Of a DNA stretch of 64,000 bases, positions 2,665-28,283 are shown piece after piece (within the stretch, counting starts at the first letter, position 1; each line of letters starts with the position of its first letter). Source of the DNA: Brooklawnia cerclae (GTDB taxonomy: Bacteria > Actinomycetota > Actinomycetes > Propionibacteriales > Propionibacteriaceae). The DNA lies in the NCBI RefSeq assembly GCF_011758645.1, contig NZ_JAAMOZ010000003.1, positions 62,001 through 126,000 on the forward strand. The letters run 5' to 3'. Below the pieces are notes generated by a model, which had not been told where the DNA came from, did not search any database, and saw only the letters and a program-made list of their open reading frames with translations. The translations under genes were made by a program, and so were the position numbers.

Positions 2665-3882
2665 ATGTCAGTGACTATGGGTCTACCGGCCGGGGCATTG
2701 GATGGCATCAAGGTCGTGGACTGCAGCGTAGCGATGTCCGGGGCGTTCGCGACGCAGAGAATGGGCGATCTCGGCGCCGATGTCGTCAAAGTCGAACCTT
2801 TGAAGGGGGAATGGCAGCGATATGCGGCAGCCGGTGGAGCCCAAGGCAATCGTATGAATGTCTCCTTCTTGTCGCTCAATCGAAACAAGCGATCCATCGC
2901 GTTGAACCTCAAGTCGCAGAAGGGACGCGACATCGTCTACGAGATGGTGGCCGACGCCGATGTTTTCCTGCAGAACTATCGTCCGGGCGTCGCGGCGCGA
3001 CTCGGTGTGGACTATGAGACGCTCAGGCAACTCAATCCCAAACTTGTCTACGTATCGATATCGGGCTACGGGGAAGACGGTCCCTATGCACATAGGCCGG
3101 GGCAGGACATGATCCTCCAGGGAATGTCTGGGCTCATGATGTGTGCCGGCCGCAGGTCAGACCCACCCGTTCCTGCAGGGATATTCCTTGTTGACTCTCT
3201 CACCGCCAGCGCGGCTTTCGAAGGTGCCATGGCGGCACTGATCTGCCGTGGTCGAACAGGAGTCGGCCAACTGGTGAAGGTAAACATGTTGGATACGATG
3301 GTCGCTATTCAGCAGCAGGAGATTTCCGTCTTCACTGTCGGCAAGAAGCCTCAGCAGCGTACTGACGAGCCCCATGCTCACTGTTATATCCGAGCTCCCT
3401 ATGGGGTTTTTGCGACGGCAGATGGGTACATCGTCGTGGCCATGGCCCGATTGAAAGAACTGGGGGCGGTCGTGGGCGAGCCTGCGTTCGAGCAGTTCGA
3501 CGAGGAGGTCGATGGTTGGGCTCGCCGGGATGAGATCCACCGGATGCTATCCGACCGGTTGGTCACGCGTACGAGCGACGAGTGGCTTATGGATCTGGAA
3601 GCTGCCGGGGTCTGGTCGGGACCGGTGTACGGGTTCGCGGACCTACTGGAAGATCCCCAGGTCAAGCACAATGGCTCGTTCATCACCTACGACCACCCGA
3701 CCGAGGGGACTGTGACCGTTCCTGGCTACCCGTATCAGTTCTCCGCGACGCCGCCTGAGGTGCGCAGGGGAGCCCCGCTGGTCGGCCAGCACACAACGGA
3801 GGTTCTCCGGGGGCTTGGCCGGTCCGAGACGGAGATCGAGGGCCTCCTCGGCGAGGGTGTGGTGGCCCAGGAGGAACTGTGA
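2665..3882 (+). CDS. CaiB/BaiF family (class III) CoA-transferase
   Basis: The product has 405 residues. Class III CoA-transferases move CoA between carboxylic acids (formate/oxalate, carnitine, bile acid and related substrates). The N-terminal Rossmann segment LDGIKVVDCSVAMSG, the MGDLGADVVKVEP motif and the catalytic aspartate in RPGQDMILQGMSGLM are all visible, and the length is normal. The ATG at 2665 follows AAAGGA; a second ATG four codons later is possible. It overlaps the next gene by GTGA. It lies between a MaoC hydratase and a CoA ligase, so the pathway has two independent ways to form CoA esters. The substrate is not predictable. Confidence 0.9.
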   Translation: MSVTMGLPAGALDGIKVVDCSVAMSGAFATQRMGDLGADVVKVEPLKGEWQRYAAAGGAQGNRMNVSFLSLNRNKRSIALNLKSQKGRDIVYEMVADADVFLQNYRPGVAARLGVDYETLRQLNPKLVYVSISGYGEDGPYAHRPGQDMILQGMSGLMMCAGRRSDPPVPAGIFLVDSLTASAAFEGAMAALICRGRTGVGQLVKVNMLDTMVAIQQQEISVFTVGKKPQQRTDEPHAHCYIRAPYGVFATADGYIVVAMARLKELGAVVGEPAFEQFDEEVDGWARRDEIHRMLSDRLVTRTSDEWLMDLEAAGVWSGPVYGFADLLEDPQVKHNGSFITYDHPTEGTVTVPGYPYQFSATPPEVRRGAPLVGQHTTEVLRGLGRSETEIEGLLGEGVVAQEEL

Positions 3883-5069
3883 GTTCATACACGGGACTCA
3901 CCTGGGATCACCCCCGTGGTTACCAGCCGCTCGTGGCCGCCGAGGAGGTGTGGCCGGGGCTGATCACCTGGCACACGCACTCTCTCGAGGGTTTCGAGTC
4001 CAAGCCCGTCTCAGAGCTGGCCAGCGCATACGACCTGCTCATGATCGATCACCCGCACGTCGGGGAAGCGAGCGCACAGAGGGCGCTCCTCCCCATGGAC
4101 GAACTGATCGACCCGGAAACCCTGCGACGGCTTCGCGAGGACGCGGTGGGGGCCTCGTTCGATTCTTATGTGCTCGACGGGCACGTGTGGGCTCTGCCCG
4201 TGGACGCCGCTTGCCAGGTGGCGGCCCTGGCCCCAGGGCGCATGGACCCTCGCGAACTGCGCGCCTGGGCACTCCGGCCTCCCTCATGGCAGGTGTTGGC
4301 GGACGAATGCCAGCGGCCCAGCGGCCGGATGAGCCTGCCGCTGGCCGGCCCTCACGCGTTGCTCGCCTGGGCATCCGTCTGTCGATCCAGGGGGGTTCCC
4401 TTGGTGGACGCGAGGGGCTATGTGGCTCCGGAGTCGCTCGGCGTCGAGTGCCTGGAACTCCTGGCCCGGGTGGTCTCCTGCTGCGACGCGGAGGCCCTGT
4501 CGGACAATCCCATCGGGCTTCTGGATCGTGTGGCAAGGGGGTATCTGGACTACTGCCCGGCGGTCTTCGGCTATGTCACCTACGCGTGTCAGAACGACGT
4601 CGTCTTCCTCGATGCGCCGAGGTGGAGCGACCTGTCGTGCAGCGGATCCACTCTAGGAGGTGTCGGCGTGGCCATCAGCAGCCGCGTGACGGATCCTAGT
4701 GCCCTTGTCGACTATGTCTTGTGGCTCACCAGCGAGGCGGCGCAACGCACGTTCCTGCCCGACCACGGCGGTCAGCCTATGAGGGAGTCGGCCTGGGGGG
4801 ACGAGCGGGTGAACGACCTGAGCAACGACTTTTATTCAGGGACACTTCGAACGTGCCGATCTGCCTGGGTCCGTCCGCGCTGGGCTGGGTTCAGCCCCGT
4901 GCAAGAAAGAGCGTCTGCCGAAGTGAGAGCGTATTTGATGGCAGGAGGGGACGTAAGGGCGACCGTGCGTGGGGTCAGGGATCTCCTGCTTGACGGTTCC
5001 CGCACGATATCAGGCGGTCGGCGGCCCAGCGGGCGCGCCGCACAAGGGGTTCGGGAGGCGGATCGATAG
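3879..5069 (+). CDS. Solute-binding-protein-like protein without signal peptide
   Basis: The product has 396 residues and resembles ABC importer substrate-binding proteins of the sugar/iron class, with an opening LTWDHPRGYQPLV, a DLLMIDHPHVG segment and an LPVDAACQVAALAPG segment. However, the protein begins directly with mature-like sequence. It has no hydrophobic signal segment, no lipobox and no Tat motif, so it should stay in the cytoplasm. No permease or ATPase is encoded nearby. The GTG start overlaps the CoA-transferase stop (GTGA) behind an AGGAGG site. I infer a soluble ligand-binding or sensory role, or a repurposed fold with catalytic or chaperone activity. The function is not established. 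Confidence 0.7.
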   Translation: MSSYTGLTWDHPRGYQPLVAAEEVWPGLITWHTHSLEGFESKPVSELASAYDLLMIDHPHVGEASAQRALLPMDELIDPETLRRLREDAVGASFDSYVLDGHVWALPVDAACQVAALAPGRMDPRELRAWALRPPSWQVLADECQRPSGRMSLPLAGPHALLAWASVCRSRGVPLVDARGYVAPESLGVECLELLARVVSCCDAEALSDNPIGLLDRVARGYLDYCPAVFGYVTYACQNDVVFLDAPRWSDLSCSGSTLGGVGVAISSRVTDPSALVDYVLWLTSEAAQRTFLPDHGGQPMRESAWGDERVNDLSNDFYSGTLRTCRSAWVRPRWAGFSPVQERASAEVRAYLMAGGDVRATVRGVRDLLLDGSRTISGGRRPSGRAAQGVREADR

Positions 5070-7060
5070 TGCGGTTCTGTGGCTCAGGACAGGTACCACT
5101 TGACGAGTTCAGCGCGTGGCTGGGAAGTCGCGACGGCGTCCGGTTCGATTCGTACGAGCGGTTGTGGCAGTGGTCGGTGGACGATGTGGAGCGGTTCTGG
5201 GCGCGTCTCGTGGAGTTTTACGAATTGCCCCTTCGAGGGGATCTCGGAAAGGTCCGTACCGCCGGGGCCATGCCGCGATGTGTGTGGTTTCCGGATGCGT
5301 ACATCAATTGGGCGGAGGTGATTCTGACCCCGGCCGTGGATCAGCGGATGAAAGACCGGCCTGCAATCATCGGATATGACGAGAACCTGACCAACTCGGT
5401 GCTGACGTGGGCACAACTGAGCCAGCAGGTCGCGTCGTTGGCCGCTGCCCTGCGTGACCTGGGCGTGGCCAAGGGCGATGTCGTCGCAGGTGTCCTCACC
5501 AACTGCCCCGAGACGGTCGTCTCGTTGTTGGCCACCGCCTGCATCGGAGCAGTGTGGGCGGTCTGTTCACCCGAATACGGATACCAGGGTGTCGTGAACC
5601 GGATGGGACAGCTGTCCCCGAAGGTGCTGATCGGGGTCGACGCCTATGAGTACGGCGGGCATCGTTGGGACCAGCGCGGCCAACTTGAGCGTGTAGCGGA
5701 CGCGTTGCCCAGCTTGCGGACCAAGATCGTCGTTTCCCGGACGGGGAACGACACCTCATGGGAAGGGTGGTCCCGTTTCACGGATCTGGTGACGGACCTC
5801 GCGTCTCCTTGCTATGCAAACACGGCGTTCAATGATCCCCTGTGGGTCCTGTTCACCTCCGGGACCAGCGGACAGCCGAAGGGAATAGTCCACACTCATG
5901 GCGGAATGGTTCTTGAGGGACTGAAGACAAACAGCCTTCATCGTGGGCTCACGCCGGGTGATCGCTACTATGCGGCGGGGAACACGTCGTGGGTCATCTG
6001 GAACCAGTTGGTGCTCTCGATGCTGACTGGCGCGACCATTGTCACGTATGACGGATCGCCGAAATACCCCGATGTGTTGCGCCACTTCGAGGTCCTTCAC
6101 CGGGCGGAAGCAACGGCGTTCTTTGTCGGTTCCGCCTACCTTCACCTCGTGTACGAGGAGGGCGTTCACCCGGCGCGACAATACGGCAGAGGGACGCTGA
6201 GCCAGGTGTTCACCAGCGGGTCGGTGTTCCGCCCCGCAGCGTGGAGGTGGCTCCAGGCCGGGTTCGGGGATGATGTGCGAGTGACGTCCGAATCCGGTGG
6301 AACGGAAGTGGCTTCGGCGTTCATCGGGCCTAATGCCTGGACGAGGCCGAGACCGGGTGTGATCGACGGCCCGATGCTTGCCACCGACGTCCAGGTGTGG
6401 GACGACTCCGGACGCCAGATCCGGGATCGTATGGGAGAACTCGTCATCGTCCAGGCGATGCCGTCCATGCCGGTGGAACTGTGGGGCGACGAGGACGGCA
6501 CGGCCTACCTCTCGACCTATTTCTCCCGGTTTCCCGGGACATGGCTCCATGGCGACTGGGCCACGCGGTACTCCCATGGAGGTTTCGTGGTCCACGGCCG
6601 CTCGGATGCCACCTTGAACAAGAACGGCGTGCGTGTCGGAACCGCGGAGGTCTACAACGCCTTGACACGCGTCCGTGAGATTCGGGACTCCCTGATCGTC
6701 GGAATCGAGCTCGAGGACGGTGAGTACTTCATGCCACTGTTCGTGGCCTTGGCCGCCGGGTCCGAGTGGTCAGAGGGGCTATTCGAGGAGGTGACCACAA
6801 GAATCCGGGCCGATGCCTCTCATCACCATCTTCCCGACGTGGTGGTTCCCGTCCCCGCCATCCCTGTCGGCAAGACGGGCAAGAAGCTGGACATCCTGGT
6901 GAAGAGAATCCTGCTCGGTCGGGTCCACCGTGGTGACGCGGTGTGCGAGTCGGCTTCGGATCCGGATGACCTTGATTGGTTCTTCGGCTTCGCGTCGAGG
7001 CTTCGTTCCGGCTGGCGGCCTTCCGGCTGTTTCCAAGAGGTCCCATCTGCTCGGGGCTGA
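5069..7060 (+). CDS. Acetoacetate-CoA ligase-like AMP-forming synthetase
   Basis: The product has 663 residues and belongs to the ANL superfamily. It has the long N-terminal region typical of acetoacetyl-CoA synthetases. The ATP-binding motif FTSGTSGQPKGIVHTHGG is near residue 263, the aspartate loop is LHGDWATRY, and the C-terminal lysine region is GKTGKKLDILVK. The reaction is acid + ATP + CoA to acyl-CoA + AMP + PPi. The GTG start overlaps the upstream TAG by one base, with GGGAGG upstream. The family resemblance suggests a beta-keto or short-chain hydroxy/keto acid, possibly the oxidation product of the two dehydrogenases downstream. The true substrate is unproven. Confidence 0.85.
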   Translation: MRFCGSGQVPLDEFSAWLGSRDGVRFDSYERLWQWSVDDVERFWARLVEFYELPLRGDLGKVRTAGAMPRCVWFPDAYINWAEVILTPAVDQRMKDRPAIIGYDENLTNSVLTWAQLSQQVASLAAALRDLGVAKGDVVAGVLTNCPETVVSLLATACIGAVWAVCSPEYGYQGVVNRMGQLSPKVLIGVDAYEYGGHRWDQRGQLERVADALPSLRTKIVVSRTGNDTSWEGWSRFTDLVTDLASPCYANTAFNDPLWVLFTSGTSGQPKGIVHTHGGMVLEGLKTNSLHRGLTPGDRYYAAGNTSWVIWNQLVLSMLTGATIVTYDGSPKYPDVLRHFEVLHRAEATAFFVGSAYLHLVYEEGVHPARQYGRGTLSQVFTSGSVFRPAAWRWLQAGFGDDVRVTSESGGTEVASAFIGPNAWTRPRPGVIDGPMLATDVQVWDDSGRQIRDRMGELVIVQAMPSMPVELWGDEDGTAYLSTYFSRFPGTWLHGDWATRYSHGGFVVHGRSDATLNKNGVRVGTAEVYNALTRVREIRDSLIVGIELEDGEYFMPLFVALAAGSEWSEGLFEEVTTRIRADASHHHLPDVVVPVPAIPVGKTGKKLDILVKRILLGRVHRGDAVCESASDPDDLDWFFGFASRLRSGWRPSGCFQEVPSARG

Positions 7061-9183: not shown

Positions 9184-10224
9184 TCAGGCGCTTCCGCGGC
9201 GTACGATCTGGTAACCCACATCGACCATCGCGTGGTCAGATGTTTCGCCACGGAGACGCTTCAGCAAGAGGTCGGTCGCCTGCCGCCCTATCGCCATCCC
9301 GTCAACGCTCACGGTGGTCAATGGGGGATTGAGGTGCCGGGCTAGTTCGAAATCGCCGAAACCAGCGATGGCCAGGTCGTCTGGCACCCTGATTCCTTGT
9401 CGTTGCGCCTCGAGAAGGGCCGCGGAGGCGAACACGTCGGACGCGAAGACAAGCAGATCGGTGTCGGGATACCGCTCCAGCGCGATGCCGAGCATCTCCG
9501 TACCGGTTGACATGGCGATCGCCCGATTCTGTAGCTCCACCAAGCGAGGCGGATCGTCTGGCGAGATCTCACGCATGGCCTGCTTGAAGCCGTCCAGCCG
9601 CCGGATGGCTCGGTGATCGCCGGCGCTGATGGTGCACGCGAAGGTGATCGCGTGGTAGCCCGTGTCATGGAGTCGGTGGACCAACTCGCGCATGGCCTCC
9701 TGGTTGGAGAAACCTGCCAGTGCGTCTACCGGATCGTCGTTCCAGTCCCAGGTCTCCACGACAGGCGCGCCGTAGGCGCGCAGCAACCGAACGGTCTCGC
9801 TCGTGTGAACCGTTCCGATGATGATGAAGCCATCGGGACGACGTTGGATGAAGCTGCGGACGAGTGCCTCTTCGCGCAACTCTTCGTAGTTCGTGAAACC
9901 GACGATGAGCTGATACCCGGCCGGTGTGAGGAGACTCGCGGCCGCCCCAAGCGTGTCGGAGAAGACCGATGTGGAGATGACGGGCAGGATGGCGGCGATC
10001 GTGCGACTGCGATTCGATGCCAGGTGGCTTGCCGCCAGGTTCCCTAGATAGCCTGTCGACTTCACCGCGAGCTCGACTCGTCGTCGTGTCTCCTCGGAGA
10101 CCTCTTGGGGCCTGTTGAGCGCCCGCGAGACGGTCTGAGCGGACACTCCGGCGGCCTCGGCGACGTCGAGCATGGTCACCGATTGGGTTGCTGATCGCGT
10201 TCTCTTGCGCCGTGTCCCACTCAT
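9184..10224 (-). CDS. LacI/GalR-family transcriptional regulator of the catabolic cluster
   Basis: The product has 346 residues. The N-terminal helix-turn-helix is TMLDVAEAAGVSAQTVSRALN, the hinge helix is LGNLAASHLASNRS, and a periplasmic-binding-protein-like effector domain ends in the conserved DDLAIAGFGDFE region. Overall it resembles gluconate-type GntR repressors. It is encoded between the dehydrogenases and the crotonase, facing both. AGCGCT-centred LacI operators lie before the transporter, before the SDR and in its own upstream gap, so it very likely represses all three units and perhaps itself. A sugar-acid or hydroxy-acid effector is inferred from the family, not shown. Confidence 0.9.
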   Translation of the reverse strand: MSGTRRKRTRSATQSVTMLDVAEAAGVSAQTVSRALNRPQEVSEETRRRVELAVKSTGYLGNLAASHLASNRSRTIAAILPVISTSVFSDTLGAAASLLTPAGYQLIVGFTNYEELREEALVRSFIQRRPDGFIIIGTVHTSETVRLLRAYGAPVVETWDWNDDPVDALAGFSNQEAMRELVHRLHDTGYHAITFACTISAGDHRAIRRLDGFKQAMREISPDDPPRLVELQNRAIAMSTGTEMLGIALERYPDTDLLVFASDVFASAALLEAQRQGIRVPDDLAIAGFGDFELARHLNPPLTTVSVDGMAIGRQATDLLLKRLRGETSDHAMVDVGYQIVRRGSA

Positions 10225-23142: not shown

Positions 23143-23988
23143 TCAGCCGCCCACGGGCAGGGTGGCCGTCTGCGCGCCTTTGCTCACGGTGACGGCCGGT
23201 CCCTCGCCCGTGTCGGCGATGTACACGGACAGCCCGTCGGCCTCCGCGATGCCCGCGGCGCGCTGCCCGGCGGTCACCAGGCCCGCGACGGTCTGCGGTG
23301 TGACGGCCGTCAGGTCGATCGGCGTGCCGCCGTCGGCGGCCTGGCGCAGGACGACGGCCGAGTCGGACGGGCTCGCCAGGCTGCGCGACCACGCGGGCGC
23401 CCAGCCCTCGGGGGTGGTGGCGTCGGCGGCCAGCAGTACGTACGCCTGCTCGGGGCCGAGCTGGACGCTGAGGACGCTCATCTCGGGCGCGAGGAGCTCC
23501 AGCTCCGACCACAGGGTGGTCAGGGTCGCGTCGTCCCACTCGGCTGCCAGCGCGGGCAGCGCGGTGTCGTTCAGCTGCGTGGACGTGGGGTTCCCGTCGC
23601 AGGCCGACCGGCTGAGCAGCGCGGCCTCGGAGGCTGTGCTGACGTCCAGCTGCCACGAGCCCTCGCACACGTCGTCCAGTGCGCTGGCCCGCGACACCGT
23701 CTCGGCCACGGGAAACTCCGCCGACGGTCTCGCGGCGACGGGCTGGCTCGCCGTGGTGGTCTCGGATCGCTCGGGCAGCAGCGTCACGAGCGTCACCCCG
23801 CCGTCGTCCGACCGCAGGTTGAGCTGCAGCTCGGACGAGCGGACGACGATCGCGGCGACCGGCCGACCGTGCTCCGCGATGGCCTCGTCCAGCAGAGCGG
23901 CAGCCTGGTCCAGCAGAGGAGTGACCGGAGCCGTGCAGCCCGCCAGCACCAGCGCCATCGCCGCGGCGAGCGTCCCTCGTCTCCTCAT
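23143..23988 (-). CDS. Lipoprotein of unknown function
   Basis: The product has 281 residues. The N-terminus MRRRGTLAAAMALVLAGC has a short basic region, a hydrophobic core and a lipobox LAGC, so the mature protein starts at Cys18 and sits on the outer face of the membrane. The rest is Ala/Thr-rich, with no recognised domain. Two internal cysteines (in DVCEGSW and SACDGNP) could form a disulfide. It is the last normal-composition gene before the AT-richer island at 24195. Function unknown. Confidence 0.75.
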   Translation of the reverse strand: MRRRGTLAAAMALVLAGCTAPVTPLLDQAAALLDEAIAEHGRPVAAIVVRSSELQLNLRSDDGGVTLVTLLPERSETTTASQPVAARPSAEFPVAETVSRASALDDVCEGSWQLDVSTASEAALLSRSACDGNPTSTQLNDTALPALAAEWDDATLTTLWSELELLAPEMSVLSVQLGPEQAYVLLAADATTPEGWAPAWSRSLASPSDSAVVLRQAADGGTPIDLTAVTPQTVAGLVTAGQRAAGIAEADGLSVYIADTGEGPAVTVSKGAQTATLPVGG

Positions 23989-24194: not shown

Positions 24195-25370
24195 CTACAG
24201 GCGACCGGCAGCGAGCTGCCACTCAAGTACGTTTACTGCTACGCGGTCGAACAATTCCTCTAAATCTTCAGATGAGAAATTAGTTTGGTCGAAACCACAC
24301 GAAACCCAACGGTTTCGAAGAAGTTCGTCCGGTAGATATCCCGTATCGACGTCGCCAACATCCCAGCCGACTCTTCCTGCAGTCTCCCAGCAACTGTATA
24401 GTTTCCCGTCGGCGTTTACTACCGCACCGTTCAAACCTCGAGCTTCTGCACAATAGACACACCCTTTGGAGGAAGGCGGAGGCGCCAGCGTGAATCCATG
24501 TTCGAGGAGTTTGACGCTACAGGAGGTTAGAAGCGAGATCAAATCAGAATTCGAAAAGCTCTCATCTTGCAAGTCGAGGCCGACCGAGTATCCATTACCT
24601 ATGTCGTAAACGGGGGCAAAGTCGACAGCGCAACGCCTGCCATCCAATCTTTCGATCAAATCGGTCGTCAACTCGTCTATCGAGTCGATGTTCTGCTTTG
24701 AGATGTTGATCCGGATGTCCCAATCGATCACGGTCTTGTCAGTGCACCGCTGGAGGTTTGTGAGAATCTGTTCATACGTAGGACGGCCGGAACGTGTGGT
24801 GCGAATTGTGTCGTGCGCCCGACGGGCGCCATCGAATGTGACCTTAACTCGCTTCAGCCCGTAGTGCGCCAACTCGTTGGCCAATTCATCGCCTAGGAGA
24901 TAACCATTTGAGACCATGATTGCGCCTACTAAACCAAGCGGGCGTGCGCGTTTCAGCAAATCCAAACATCCTTCAGGGTTGAGCAGCGGTTCGCCTCCGA
25001 ATAGCAGTATGTGGAGACCTGTCTTGGACGCAAACCGCATCTGCTGCTGAGTGAACCTCAGGATTTTGGCGGTTGTGTCAACGTCGAGTCTCAAAGACTT
25101 CAGTCGAGGCGGATTCTGGACACCATGAGAAGCGGCTCCCGTATTCTGAAAGCAGTAGTTACAACCGCAGTTGCAGCTCGTCGACGTTAGGACAGTCAAA
25201 TAGTAAGTGGCGTCGTCCCCGTCGCTCGACTGAAAAAAGCCGCCATTTTCGAGATCCAGCATGACATGATCGGCGATGATTCCCTGCTCGTTTACTGCGG
25301 TAGTGGGTAGGAGTGCTATGGTTTCGCTCCCAAAGACCCACCAGCCTTCGGACCCTTTTAGAATCTTCAT
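24195..25370 (-). CDS. Radical SAM peptide maturase with partial SPASM domain
   Basis: The product has 391 residues. After a 60-residue N-terminal region, the [4Fe-4S] motif CX3CX2C is Cys66, Cys70 and Cys73 (SCNCGCNYC). The SAM-binding GGEP is at 125-128. The C-terminus has Cys304, Cys307 and GX4C ending at Cys327 (GKLYSC), the opening of a SPASM/Twitch auxiliary cluster. The later CX2CX5CX3C block of full SPASM proteins is missing; only Cys358 follows. This architecture is typical of enzymes that modify ribosomal peptides. A peptide gene lies directly upstream behind a strong hairpin. The start has AAAGGTGA six bases away. The reaction (thioether, C-C bond or decarboxylation) is unknown. 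Confidence 0.88.
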   Translation of the reverse strand: MKILKGSEGWWVFGSETIALLPTTAVNEQGIIADHVMLDLENGGFFQSSDGDDATYYLTVLTSTSCNCGCNYCFQNTGAASHGVQNPPRLKSLRLDVDTTAKILRFTQQQMRFASKTGLHILLFGGEPLLNPEGCLDLLKRARPLGLVGAIMVSNGYLLGDELANELAHYGLKRVKVTFDGARRAHDTIRTTRSGRPTYEQILTNLQRCTDKTVIDWDIRINISKQNIDSIDELTTDLIERLDGRRCAVDFAPVYDIGNGYSVGLDLQDESFSNSDLISLLTSCSVKLLEHGFTLAPPPSSKGCVYCAEARGLNGAVVNADGKLYSCWETAGRVGWDVGDVDTGYLPDELLRNRWVSCGFDQTNFSSEDLEELFDRVAVNVLEWQLAAGRL

Positions 25371-25386
25371 GAGGTCACCTTTCTTT

Positions 25387-25424
25387 GAACCGGGTTGCCG
25401 ACCTTAAGGTCGGCAACCCGGTTC
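25387..25424. terminator. Perfect 38-bp palindrome between peptide gene and radical SAM gene
   Basis: Arms of 17 bp (25387-25403 and 25408-25424) flank TTAA; the whole 38 bp is self-complementary. On the minus strand it lies 20 bp after the peptide stop codon and 16 bp before the radical SAM start codon. No T-run follows directly. Hairpins in this place often give partial termination or mRNA protection, so that far more precursor than enzyme is made. That role is inferred here. Confidence 0.8.
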
Positions 25425-25444
25425 ATGGAGAACTTTCCTATTGA

Positions 25445-25543
25445 TCAAAAGATGCCGCAGACCCCGCGCCGTGAGCGCTTGATAAGCTTAATCATTCTCG
25501 TCACCTCCTCCGTAAACATTTCTTGGAAAAACTGTGCCCTCAT
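25445..25543 (-). CDS. Putative RiPP precursor peptide (16 or 32 residues)
   Basis: One reading frame offers two good starts. The 32-residue form begins at 25543 with MRAQFFQEMFTEEVTR, and its ATG overlaps the methyltransferase stop as ATGA. The 16-residue form, MIKLIKRSRRGVCGIF, begins at 25495 behind an ideal GGAGG eight bases upstream. Both end in a basic stretch followed by GVCGIF with a single cysteine. Mycofactocin precursors are of similar length (about 30) and end GMCGVY or close variants, so a C-terminal core is plausible. The radical SAM gene follows 74 bp downstream. No known family is confirmed, and a product has not been shown. Confidence 0.68.
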   Translation of the reverse strand: MRAQFFQEMFTEEVTRMIKLIKRSRRGVCGIF

Positions 25544-26340
25544 GGGAGACGAAGCGCCGAATATACAATCTTGCGAAAGTCCTGCTCGCCGTCGGCCCGA
25601 AACAGATTTCGGGATCGAATCCCTCGTTTCTGGACCCTAGTGAATCCCGCATCCTTGAGGACTCTCGTGACTTCGGAGACTCTATAGTGACGCTGGGTAT
25701 GAATCGAGTTGTGTTCGGTATCACCACGCCACATGCCCGTTCCGTATTCCTGGCCTAGAGTGTATTGGAAAAGTCTACCAGCCTGAATTTCGTTATACTT
25801 AGGGCGCAGAGTAAACGATCCGGCAGCCGTCTCATAGACAACCGCTCCTTCTGCAATAGCTCTGTAAGTATTGAGCGTGTTTAGATCGAACACGAGAACA
25901 GCTCCACTGCGCATCCTTGCGTAAAACCCTTGTATTGCCTGACGAAAGTCGTGAAGGGTTAGCAGGTAATTCATAGAATCATTCCAGCATGTCACCAAAT
26001 CGAATGATTCAGCAAAAATCGGTAGATGGCGCATGTCTGCGTTGAATATGGTGGCTCGCGAAAGTGAAGGCTTCTTTCTGGCCACGTCTAACATTTCGTC
26101 GCAGTAATCAAATGCCCATACGCTCATGCCATGGCGCGCGAACTGCTCTGCTAGGTTCCCGGTTCCTGTCGCGGCGTCGAGAACATCGACGGGACGGCAC
26201 CCGTCCAGTGCGGCGATCTCAAGTATGAGCTCAGCGGCCCGCCCGTAGTCGTCAACGCTCTTGTAGAGGTCGTATATGGGGGCGAACTGACTGTACGTGG
26301 CGTCGGCGGTGCTTATGGGTGGGAGGTTGTCGAGCGGCAT
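25540..26340 (-). CDS. Class I SAM-dependent methyltransferase
   Basis: The product has 266 residues with a Rossmann-type fold. Motif I is VLDAATGTGNLAEQFARHG, an acidic residue closes strand 2 in AFDYCDEML, and the segment MRHLPIFAESFDLVTCWNDSMNYLL carries the later motifs. It has the general form of small-molecule or peptide methyltransferases. It is the first gene of the minus-strand operon, joined to the precursor peptide by a 4-nt overlap, so it probably modifies the peptide product. No ribosome binding site precedes the ATG. A TTGTAC/TAGTAT promoter placed immediately upstream suggests a leaderless transcript. Confidence 0.85.
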   Translation of the reverse strand: MPLDNLPPISTADATYSQFAPIYDLYKSVDDYGRAAELILEIAALDGCRPVDVLDAATGTGNLAEQFARHGMSVWAFDYCDEMLDVARKKPSLSRATIFNADMRHLPIFAESFDLVTCWNDSMNYLLTLHDFRQAIQGFYARMRSGAVLVFDLNTLNTYRAIAEGAVVYETAAGSFTLRPKYNEIQAGRLFQYTLGQEYGTGMWRGDTEHNSIHTQRHYRVSEVTRVLKDAGFTRVQKRGIRSRNLFRADGEQDFRKIVYSALRLP

Positions 26341-26347
26341 GGCCTAG

Positions 26348-26412
26348 ATACTAGTCGTACAAGCACAGTTGTACAAGAGGTGTTGTACATTGAAGTTGGT
26401 AGATGTTACGCT
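26348..26412. promoter_or_regulatory. Divergent leaderless promoters with GTACAA operator repeats
   Basis: Minus strand: -35 TTGTAC (26376-26371), 17-bp spacer, -10 TAGTAT (26353-26348), placing the start of transcription at or next to the methyltransferase ATG at 26340. Plus strand: TTGTAC (26383-26388), 18-bp spacer, TACGCT (26407-26412), placing it near the ArsR-type ATG at 26419. GTACAA and its complement occur three times, including the dyad GTACAA-N6-TTGTAC (26357-26374) and TTGTACAA. They overlap both promoters, so the ArsR-type protein probably represses both units. Confidence 0.6.
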
Positions 26413-26418
26413 CGTTTC

Positions 26419-27015
26419 ATGGATCAACCTGAGGCCTCGAACGGGCAACGGACTCCTCTCATCCGTGATGCCGCTACTCTCCGGCGAGTCGCCACGCCAG
26501 ATCGGATCAGAATCTATGAGTTTCTGGTCCGCACAGGCTCGTCCCGGGTTAGCGCGATCGCAGGGGCGCTTGGGCTAGCGGTCGGCTCGGTCAGCCATCA
26601 CCTTCGGGTCATGTATCAAGACGGCTTTGTCGTCAGGGCGGACGAGCTAGCGCCTGATCGGCGTTCGCGCTTCTGGCGGGCAGTCCCGGGAGGGATCCGA
26701 TGGGAGTCACCTTCTGATCCCGGCGAACTGCAGTACTTGTCGGCTGTAGACGAAGCCCAGACGGTCATCCAGAGTCGACGCGACGATGCTGTCCGTGCTT
26801 GGCGGCAGTCGCTCGCATCGTGGCCGTCGGCTTGGCGCGAGGCAGCCATGGACACTGACTCTGTACTGAAGTTGACGCCCGACCAGGCGGAGAACTTCCG
26901 CGATGAGATCCTCGAGGTCATCGCGCGGTGGCGGCAATGCACGCCAGCTTCAGGAATTGCCCGTGATGTGTTCGTATCGTTCATGTCAATACCGATGGGA
27001 CAGCCGCGAGCGTGA
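26419..27015 (+). CDS. ArsR-family winged-helix transcriptional regulator
   Basis: The product has 198 residues. The winged helix-turn-helix is in the first half, ATPDRIRIYEFLVRTGSS then VSAIAGALGLAVGSVSHHLRVMYQDGFV, with a wing rich in arginine. The C-terminal half is helical with no cysteine or histidine cluster, so it is not an obvious metal sensor and may sense a small molecule or the peptide product. The ATG at 26419 has no Shine-Dalgarno sequence, consistent with a leaderless mRNA. It overlaps the exporter gene by GTGA. It is divergent from the peptide operon across a shared operator region. Confidence 0.85.
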   Translation: MDQPEASNGQRTPLIRDAATLRRVATPDRIRIYEFLVRTGSSRVSAIAGALGLAVGSVSHHLRVMYQDGFVVRADELAPDRRSRFWRAVPGGIRWESPSDPGELQYLSAVDEAQTVIQSRRDDAVRAWRQSLASWPSAWREAAMDTDSVLKLTPDQAENFRDEILEVIARWRQCTPASGIARDVFVSFMSIPMGQPRA

Positions 27016-28283
27016 ACTCATCTTTCCGGCGGGCTGGGCCAGCCAGCATCTGGTTGAGCGGCGATAAGGCTTTCGTGAGGTACTTTGGCGCGCGCGCGAT
27101 ATCGCTGCTGGCCGTCAGCATGGCCCCGCTGGTCGTGACGTTTGCAGTACTTTCGATCAGCACCAGCGCACACGAGTTGGCTGTAGTCACAATCGCTCGA
27201 ACTCTGGCTATGCTTGTGCTCTTGCCGGTCGCCGGAGTAGCGGCAGATCGAGTTCGTCCTGGCACGATCCTTGTGACTGCACACGCCATCGCGGCTCTGA
27301 GCCAATCCTGTGCGGCTCTCCTACTGCATGCTTCACTGCCAAAGATTCCGTTGTTGACCGTAATGGAGGCCATCAACGGCGGGGCCAGCGCGTTGGCTCT
27401 TCCGGTGTTCATGGCGATCGTTCCGGCCGTCGTCGAGGATAGACATCTTGTCCAGGCTAACTCCGCTATCACCATGGTTCGTAGTGCCGCAACGATCGTT
27501 GGACCACTATTGGCCAGCTTATTGATCTCTTCAGGTCCGAGTGCTGGTCTCGCGCTTAATGCGGCGCTGTTTGCTCTGTCTGCATGCCTTTGCGGTCAAT
27601 TGAGACTTGGGGCGCCTGCGACCGATCTGTCTGCTGGACGAAGGCTTATCGACGATATCCGGGAAGGATGGGTTGACTTTGTGTCCCGCTCTTGGATCTG
27701 GTCGGTCGTATTCGCTTTCACACTTGTCAACGCGGTCTTTGCCGGCGTTCAGAGCGTAATTGGCCCCATAGTGGCGGTATCCCATCGAGGTCTTGGGCAA
27801 TCAGGCTGGGGTTTGGCTATCGCTGCGATGGGCGCTGGTATGTTCATTGCCGGTATCGTTATGTACCGCATGCGCCCACGCCACCCGTTAGTCTCCGGAC
27901 TTGTCAGTGCCACCACCATTGCGCTGCCCCCGTTGTGCCTCTGGGCCGTCCCAAGTGCTCTGCCAGTGGCTTGCGCCTTTCTGGTTGCCGGCATCGGTAT
28001 GGAAGTGTTCAGCATCTGCTGGCTCAGTGTGCTGCAATTCAACGTACCGCAGGATCGACTCGGCCGCGTCTCTACTTTCGACGCGCTCGGTTCTTACGTG
28101 GCTGTGCCCATTGGGACCAGTCTCGCTGGAGTTCTTCAGCCGATTCACGGGGATCTACTACTTCCGCTCGCCGCATTGGTGATCCTTGTTTCTGCCGCAG
28201 CCCCGCTAATTGTTCCGAGTGTGAGGTCGATCACGGCTAATACGTGGAGCGACTCCATCGCGGACTGCCCGGAGAAGGATTGA
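27012..28283 (+). CDS. MFS exporter (EntS/MFS_3-like)
   Basis: The product has 423 residues with about 12 helices. It resembles drug and siderophore exporters of the MFS_3 group. The loop PVAGVAADRVRPGTILV is the 2-3 motif, and VQANSAITMVRSAATIVGPLLA is typical of this group. The GTG start overlaps the ArsR stop (GTGA). Co-transcription with the regulator and position in the island suggest that it exports the modified peptide or a derived small molecule, or gives self-resistance. The gene ends 19 bp from the convergent hydrolase, which marks the right side of the island. Confidence 0.87.
   Translation: MNSSFRRAGPASIWLSGDKAFVRYFGARAISLLAVSMAPLVVTFAVLSISTSAHELAVVTIARTLAMLVLLPVAGVAADRVRPGTILVTAHAIAALSQSCAALLLHASLPKIPLLTVMEAINGGASALALPVFMAIVPAVVEDRHLVQANSAITMVRSAATIVGPLLASLLISSGPSAGLALNAALFALSACLCGQLRLGAPATDLSAGRRLIDDIREGWVDFVSRSWIWSVVFAFTLVNAVFAGVQSVIGPIVAVSHRGLGQSGWGLAIAAMGAGMFIAGIVMYRMRPRHPLVSGLVSATTIALPPLCLWAVPSALPVACAFLVAGIGMEVFSICWLSVLQFNVPQDRLGRVSTFDALGSYVAVPIGTSLAGVLQPIHGDLLLPLAALVILVSAAAPLIVPSVRSITANTWSDSIADCPEKD

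Follow-up and report, generated by a model that had tools for sequence, protein, structure and literature searches.

Does a frame of only 16 codons, lying beside a radical S-adenosylmethionine (SAM) enzyme, encode the substrate of that enzyme? The question is raised by a compact cassette at positions 24195–28283 of a 64,000-nucleotide stretch of Brooklawnia cerclae DNA (contig NZ_JAAMOZ010000003.1, positions 62,001–126,000 of the forward strand; hereafter the window). The cassette comprises a radical SAM enzyme (rSAM), a tiny cysteine-containing peptide, a methyltransferase (MT), an ArsR-type regulator and a major facilitator superfamily (MFS) transporter, and an earlier note, made from the DNA letters alone, had read it as a cluster for a ribosomally synthesized and post-translationally modified peptide (RiPP). 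We conclude that it is very probably a genuine RiPP cassette of a kind with a minimal precursor. As judged from sequence, an encoded precursor lies beside a peptide-modifying enzyme and the two are conserved together, which is the general hallmark of a RiPP cluster, and the RiPP-type reading is supported by recurrence of all five kinds of component at two further loci, L043 and L022.

The cassette comprises two divergent operons and a probable 16-residue precursor

The five genes and their division into divergent operons are found where the earlier note had placed them. The minus-strand operon runs from the class I SAM-dependent MT gene (25540–26340, 266 aa; PF13649, 63.2 bits) through the precursor peptide gene (25445–25495, 16 aa) and a hairpin (25386–25425) to the rSAM gene (24195–25370, 391 aa; PF04055, 54.8 bits). 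On the plus strand, the gene for the ArsR-type winged-helix regulator (26419–27015, 198 aa; PF01022, 29.2 bits) is followed by that for the MFS transporter (27012–28283, 423 aa; PF07690, 88.7 bits), by sequence the probable exporter of the product. The tight overlap described for each operon holds on the plus strand, where the two genes share 4 nt, but not on the minus strand, where the 16-aa frame lies 44 nt from the MT gene and 74 nt, hairpin included, before the rSAM gene. The cassette is also AT-rich as claimed: G+C content is 52.5–52.9% in the rSAM, peptide and MT genes, 62.1% in the ArsR gene and 58.4% in the MFS gene, versus 74.3% and 70.3% in the flanking genes.

The longest peptide frame (25543–25445) has 32 codons, and its ATG overlaps the MT stop codon as ATGA (25540–25543). 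An internal ATG at 25495, however, lies behind a near-perfect Shine-Dalgarno sequence, GGAGGAGGTGA (25501–25511, minus strand, read from the sequence), and opens the 16-aa peptide MIKLIKRSRRGVCGIF. A search of the same strand over the surrounding 2.5 kb for frames of 8–60 aa preceded by six or more matching Shine-Dalgarno bases gave three hits, two of them representing one frame within the MT gene, and the strongest site by eye belongs to the 16-aa peptide. The precursor is therefore probably the 16-aa rather than the 32-aa form. The ATGA overlap, together with the frequency of longer precursors beside related enzymes, would suit a 32-aa precursor, MRAQFFQEMFTEEVTRMIKLIKRSRRGVCGIF, with a conventional leader and translation coupled to the MT stop, yet we regard this form as unlikely, given that its TEEVTR segment is coded by the Shine-Dalgarno stretch itself, that its upstream ATG failed the six-base filter, and that relatives' peptides with a stop just upstream measure 18–28 aa. 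Such in-frame stops lie 4–13 codons upstream of the peptides in L022, L023b, L042, L043 and L027, and these peptides therefore cannot begin much earlier. To our knowledge, the 16-aa gene would be among the smallest precursor genes for an rSAM substrate.

The five-component set recurs in rearranged form

The earlier note had proposed collecting genomes with the same five genes, and this yields two more loci, both rearranged relative to the window: L043, with an rSAM 38–39% identical to that of the window, and L022 (36%), each combining a tiny peptide with an rSAM, a class I MT, an ArsR regulator and an MFS transporter. In L043, an overlapping ArsR-MFS-MT operon diverges from peptide, hairpin and rSAM, its MT and ArsR being 28% (9e-22) and 29% (1e-24) identical to those of the window; in L022, ArsR-MFS diverges from rSAM-MT-peptide. 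The window MFS is 34% identical to that of L022 and 34–36% across L022 and L025. The MT switches operon and gene order varies, and the set persists. Open reading frames in relatives came from a home-made caller that misses genes (for example the L043 ArsR, MFS and MT, found by later search).

Maximum-likelihood analysis of 33 rSAM sequences places the window together with L043, L022, L029, L042 and L045, whose peptides have 18–29 aa and one or two cysteines (window-group forks 84/88, 81/73 and 82/55; L043 with L022, 99/97), and 16 other loci form a separate group (97/96), with a longer precursor located in 15 (not L031). The rSAM genes of L023 and L026, cut by contig ends, stand outside the tree; the MTs of these loci share 55% and 50% identity, respectively, with the L022 MT. 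Relatives of the window MT at 28–29% identity lie near the rSAM gene in L029, L042 and L043. At E 1e-8 in the fetched flanks, a window-type MT is present in three of the five other tree-group members, L022 having another class I MT and L045 none, and L029 joins its MT-peptide-rSAM order with an MFS match (31.6%, 5e-25). As a control, the MT, ArsR and MFS of the window, sought at the same threshold, were matched in one of 18 loci of the long-precursor sister set (one MFS; L031 and L041 without a located precursor) and one of 56 distant loci (one MT), and a window-type MT was found in none of nine further loci (1e-5, 1.5-kb flanks).

Two contig ends belong beside these loci: L025 (3969–5529) carries ArsR, MFS and the start of an rSAM gene at the contig end, and L026 (1–1497) begins with the end of an rSAM gene, followed by an MT and two peptides. 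They may be the two ends of one more L022-like cluster.

Relatives carry tiny peptides with a cysteine near the end

The peptides of this group are MVKAILIQSEPIIVCVVH (18 aa) in L022, MTRVRIEVLDVEDRVICNVYG (21 aa, GTG start) in L043, MLAVTEAIEIVELADCDLVCSNK (23 aa, two cysteines) in L042, a frame of 23–25 aa with two cysteines in L045, and MEHTEETIVVFDTEEAADTCGVRTGTPAR (29 aa) in L029. L023 and L026 carry three and two tandem peptides, respectively, of 17–18 aa (e.g., MVKAIVRRTEPVLICGVH) behind the MT, with strong Shine-Dalgarno sequences (L023, reverse strand, 1581–1982; L026, 1311–1497), an arrangement that suggests that one rSAM/MT pair serves several tiny precursors of diversified sequence. 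A cysteine occupies position -4 in all seven peptides of the window, L022, L023 and L026, and the spacing from first isoleucine to cysteine is identical in the window and L043. Codon changes among the 18-aa peptides show no clear synonymous excess (nonsynonymous codons prevail in 8 of the 10 pairs, and one pair is tied) and lend no support.

Beyond this group, many rSAM genes of the wider family adjoin longer precursors, which carry a [DE]VVAH leader motif, in some cases in variant form, and at least one cysteine core (PWCGVNTG, CGIQIG, CIINNSS). Of 40 cores picked and typed by hand across the whole family, 30 have V, I or T as the second residue after the cysteine. Loci of this wider actinobacterial family, mostly with EVVAH-type leaders, are L028, L030, L032–L040, L044, L046, L048, L049 and L076, with precursors at about 3300–5900 (in L034 also near 9500); some precursors are multi-core, for example with repeated EDTPWCGVNTG, and several loci adjoin MFS, prolyl-oligopeptidase-like and glycosyltransferase-like genes, named by eye. 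Of ten precursors tested, none reached an NCBIfam cut-off and two gave weak matches, one of them the L045 peptide against the StsA sactipeptide model (14.8 bits versus 42); the four EVVAH precursors examined matched no NCBIfam model. L047 and L050 (Lentzea and Actinokineospora, about 5780–5935) have precursors ending RCVGTGGYHDLGDYYGI and RCIGRGGFHNLGDYDGI, with zinc-peptidase-like genes (by eye) downstream, and this pair may have other chemistry. L027 (G612), from the window's own family, carries a 28-aa cysteine peptide (109–195), an rSAM gene (262–1434) 34–38% identical at the protein level, and an MFS-like frame behind, by eye.

A hairpin frequently follows the precursor

The window hairpin consists of a perfect 18-bp stem and a 4-nt loop, and the 141 nt around it fold at -62.1 kcal/mol (z = -6.2; 0/200 shuffles as stable). 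Among 22 precursors located near their gene (L018, L020 [same contig as L043], L048, L076 and loci with a distant or unlocated precursor left out), 12 are followed by a perfect stem of at least 11 bp within 130 nt of the stop codon, versus 1.4% of 4400 control pieces drawn at random from these loci; the other ten, including those of L029 and L027, are not. The hairpin precedes the rSAM gene in nine loci (the window, L019, L039, L042–L045, L047 and L050), and in L022, L023 and L026, where it comes after the final peptide downstream of the MT, it may be an ordinary terminator. Hairpin sequences vary from locus to locus. That of the window is a probable partial terminator or attenuator, or an mRNA-stabilising element.

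Its position directly behind the tiny frame could also suggest that the frame is a leader or attenuator peptide controlling rSAM expression, the substrate being a small molecule. We consider this very unlikely: the tiny peptides of L022, L023 and L026 stand behind the MT and not before the rSAM gene, those of L023 and L026 are repeated with diversified sequence, and related rSAM loci hold longer precursors with repeated cysteine cores. A precursor role for the tiny frame fits these observations better, and it is highly probable that the peptide is the rSAM substrate, as we predict.

Several observations weigh against a conserved minimal-precursor cassette. Peptides this short do not allow a homology statistic, so that their likeness is one of size, Shine-Dalgarno sequence, position and cysteine motif. 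The conserved tail expected by the earlier note stands as a cysteine position in the seven peptides above, but its letters vary and the cysteine moves elsewhere (the last cysteine at -4 in L042, -5 in L043, -6 in L045 and -10 in L029), so that its position is a tendency rather than a rule. The L043 MFS is not detectably related to that of the window (E 1.6), and the L022 ArsR (E ~1) and MT have no significant similarity to those of the window in direct comparison; L043 and L022 share kinds of gene, not all of them orthologues. L042 has the MT and a 23-aa peptide without an ArsR or MFS match, and L045 an adjacent MFS by Pfam without an MT or ArsR match. L043, L025 and L026 all come from metagenome bin G100 and are not fully independent. 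The forks uniting the tiny-precursor loci are moderately supported, the window stands in no starred fork and L022 sits on a long branch; in plain identity, the window rSAM is closer to the sister clade (40–45%) than to L042, L043 and L045 (39, 38 and 35%). The window hairpin lacks a T-run and is not among the terminator-like sites found, and is thus no textbook terminator.

The rSAM resembles cysteine-peptide maturases

The rSAM contains a CxxxCxxC motif (C66/C70/C73) and four auxiliary-cluster cysteines (C304, C307, C327 and C358), all seven conserved in the window and in each of 22 relatives (23 of 23); in a second alignment, of eight sequences, C327 is replaced by serine in L021. These cysteines would fit a SAM-binding cluster plus one auxiliary cluster. 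With four auxiliary cysteines only, the auxiliary part looks like a one-cluster, twitch-type domain and not the full SPASM domain that the earlier note had named.

Among NCBIfam models, the best is TIGR04463 (rSAM_vs_C_rich maturase; 130.4 bits against a cut-off of 525), with CefB (NF038107) and Clo7bot also among the closest, the protein falling below every cut-off shown. The AlphaFold2 model (pLDDT 90.8, pTM 0.89) matches the thioether-forming CteB best in the Protein Data Bank (5why/5wgg, TMq 0.65–0.66), then anSME, SkfB and ChlB. RiPP recognition element (RRE) domains are frequent in RiPP systems, though not universal. Before its core, in the N-terminal 50 residues, the model has short strands at 2–5, 10–13 and 18–21 and one helix of at least four residues at 34–42, as read from the model fewer elements than the three-stranded sheet and three helices by which an RRE leader-binding domain is defined in a 2021 review (PMC8326336).

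The closest folds and models belong to maturases that form thioethers or act on cysteine peptides, and for this reason a cysteine thioether is our leading guess for the product of the rSAM, a prediction to which we give a little less than an even chance. Mycofactocin-like chemistry, i.e., oxidation and decarboxylation of the C-terminus or an Ile15-Phe16 C-C bond, with the cysteine serving recognition or cluster binding, is improbable but has points in its favour. The tail R-G-V-C-G-I-F is like the MftA tail, D-G-M-C-G-V-Y, in placing cysteine fourth and a beta-branched residue second from the end; the V/I/T preference among the hand-picked cores agrees with it, and single-cysteine cores lacking a fixed acceptor leave a thioether unproven. 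Yet the rSAM scores only 29.5 bits with the MftC model TIGR03962 (cut-off 265) versus 130 with TIGR04463, tiny-precursor relatives end in H, R, K or G rather than in an aromatic residue, the cysteine is not close to the end in most long precursors, and the host genome has no mycofactocin rSAM match above the TIGR03962 cut-off. Weak matches to this model below the cut-off, at G000:C1:172981–173598, G000:C1:308943–309443 and G000:C2:54144–54746, are probably other radical SAM proteins.

The regulator, transporter and methyltransferase in a proposed pathway

The 78 bp between the divergent starts contain two overlapping palindromes (GTACAA-N6-TTGTAC twice; 26357–26388, no strand) made up of four TTGTAC/GTACAA half-sites. 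Four half-sites were reached in none of 10,000 mononucleotide shuffles, for a motif picked after being seen. The divergent region of L043 holds no comparable repeat and leaves conservation of the palindrome unsupported; the site is a possible, candidate regulator-binding site. Assignment of the regulator as a metal sensor was rejected: it scores 38.8 with NF033788 (cut-off 55), and its closest solved chain, NmtR, aligns over the helix-turn-helix alone. The window MFS scores 150 bits with TIGR00900, below the cut-off of 319.6. N-methyltransferases are among the solved-structure relatives of the MT.

We propose the following model. Many transcripts would end at the hairpin, as in microcin C, and the 16-aa peptide would be made in excess. 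The rSAM would abstract a hydrogen from the C-terminal Cys-Gly-Ile-Phe, most likely to cross-link the cysteine sulfur to a neighbouring residue. The MT would methylate the peptide, most likely at its amino end; N-terminal methylation is a guess by analogy with the solved N-methyltransferase relatives and with myxarylin, whose N-terminus is the target of a class I methyltransferase (PMC12951456). The MFS pump would export the peptide, possibly with little or no leader removal, since the cassette lacks a peptidase. The ArsR-type regulator would bind the palindrome at 26357–26388 and repress both operons until freed by the product or some related signal.

Frames of 16–18 aa are expected to be too short for the usual size limits of gene callers, so that, if they are true substrates, they would represent a modified-peptide family invisible to ordinary genome mining. 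The cassette would then also offer a minimal rSAM substrate for studying peptide recognition without a long leader, in a self-contained five-gene form easily moved to a laboratory host.

The cassette is an insertion in the lineage of its strain

The right flank is syntenic in six of the seven other genomes of the genus, the seventh (G004) giving a 32% match only. The flanking alpha/beta-hydrolase-like and DoxX-like genes (named by eye) nearly adjoin, being 96–176 nt apart, in five of these six congeners (1,076 nt in one; G006 and G007 look near-identical), and the cassette is therefore an insertion in the lineage of this strain. No match to the cassette was found in the six congener stretches at 1e-8, and within the genus the rSAM occurs in the window's own genome only. 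Adjoining the island is a lipoprotein-like gene (by eye; 23143–23988, 74% G+C), likewise unmatched in those stretches at that threshold. The window contains no tRNA, and the two ends share only 9-bp repeats. A plasmid-borne copy was sought by blastn of 24195–28283 against 72,556 plasmid records, with no match; tblastn of the rSAM in the same records matched 52, all below 60% identity, with 20 listed at 23–29%.

The whole-genome searches are samples. At E 1e-12 they matched the rSAM in two of the 198 family genomes, including the window's own, and in 12 of 394 class draws, including the window's genome and several weak distant matches. It is present in 1 of 96 relatives and in 1/166, 1/1, 1/3 and 12/240 of other samples, and an rSAM profile at 1e-40 matched 2 of 396 phylum draws, with the first four candidates per genome scored. 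An alignment scan of an 84,980-species collection gave at least 80 rSAM loci; among the matches listed, 24 actinobacterial loci (L028–L050 and L076) have 35–44% identity.

Comparison with known systems

With the maturases of sactipeptides and ranthipeptides (CteB, PapB, SCIFF, Clo7bot, TIGR04463), the window shares an rSAM core with an auxiliary cluster and an adjacent cysteine peptide. It differs in an rSAM far below curated cut-offs, with four auxiliary cysteines only, and in a precursor of about 16 aa with one cysteine; sactipeptide leaders have 8–29 aa and cores 26–44 aa, according to the 2021 review (PMC8326336). A further comparison is the long-precursor sister clade (Streptomyces, Micromonospora, Amycolatopsis and others), with rSAMs at the 40–45% identity given above, the leader motif EVVAH and cores mostly of the form C-x-[V/I], among them PWCGVNTG and CIINNSS. 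Precursors of this clade, in contrast, are longer and often multi-core, and none of its 18 loci has a window-type MT or ArsR match.

Other likenesses lie in the design. In microcin C (mccA-mccB-mccC), a hairpin terminator between precursor and enzyme genes leads to excess precursor mRNA (PMC6495379); the likeness lies in the tiny precursor gene, the hairpin before the enzyme gene and the export pump, and is an analogy of working only, since the microcin C enzyme adenylates the peptide and the four proteins of the cassette (rSAM, MT, ArsR and MFS) include no MccB-type enzyme. Biarylitides, including myxarylin, likewise have very small precursors and a cross-link, joined in myxarylin by a class I methyltransferase; there the cross-link is made by a P450, absent from the cassette proteins, and the leader is likely removed by a prolyl oligopeptidase (PMC12951456). 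The window tail CGIF resembles the MftA tail CGVY, whereas no other cassette gene is a mycofactocin companion by name.

The combination of a tiny precursor with rSAM, MT, ArsR and MFS stands under no NCBIfam name in the parts tested, and the family appears undescribed among the open-licence papers listed, as judged by titles and abstract starts, though it may still exist in print. It is conceivable, with the balance tilted somewhat to the other side, that the cassette represents an undescribed RiPP class, in which near-leaderless peptides of 16–21 aa are recognised and cross-linked by the rSAM at a C-terminal segment of the form C-x-[V/I/T]-x, with neither a long leader nor a full RRE, then methylated and exported by an MFS pump without proteolysis. 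Collectively, we rate the rSAM RiPP as a kind already known, and the combination of a near-leaderless precursor with rSAM, MT, ArsR and MFS as an apparently new variation on it.

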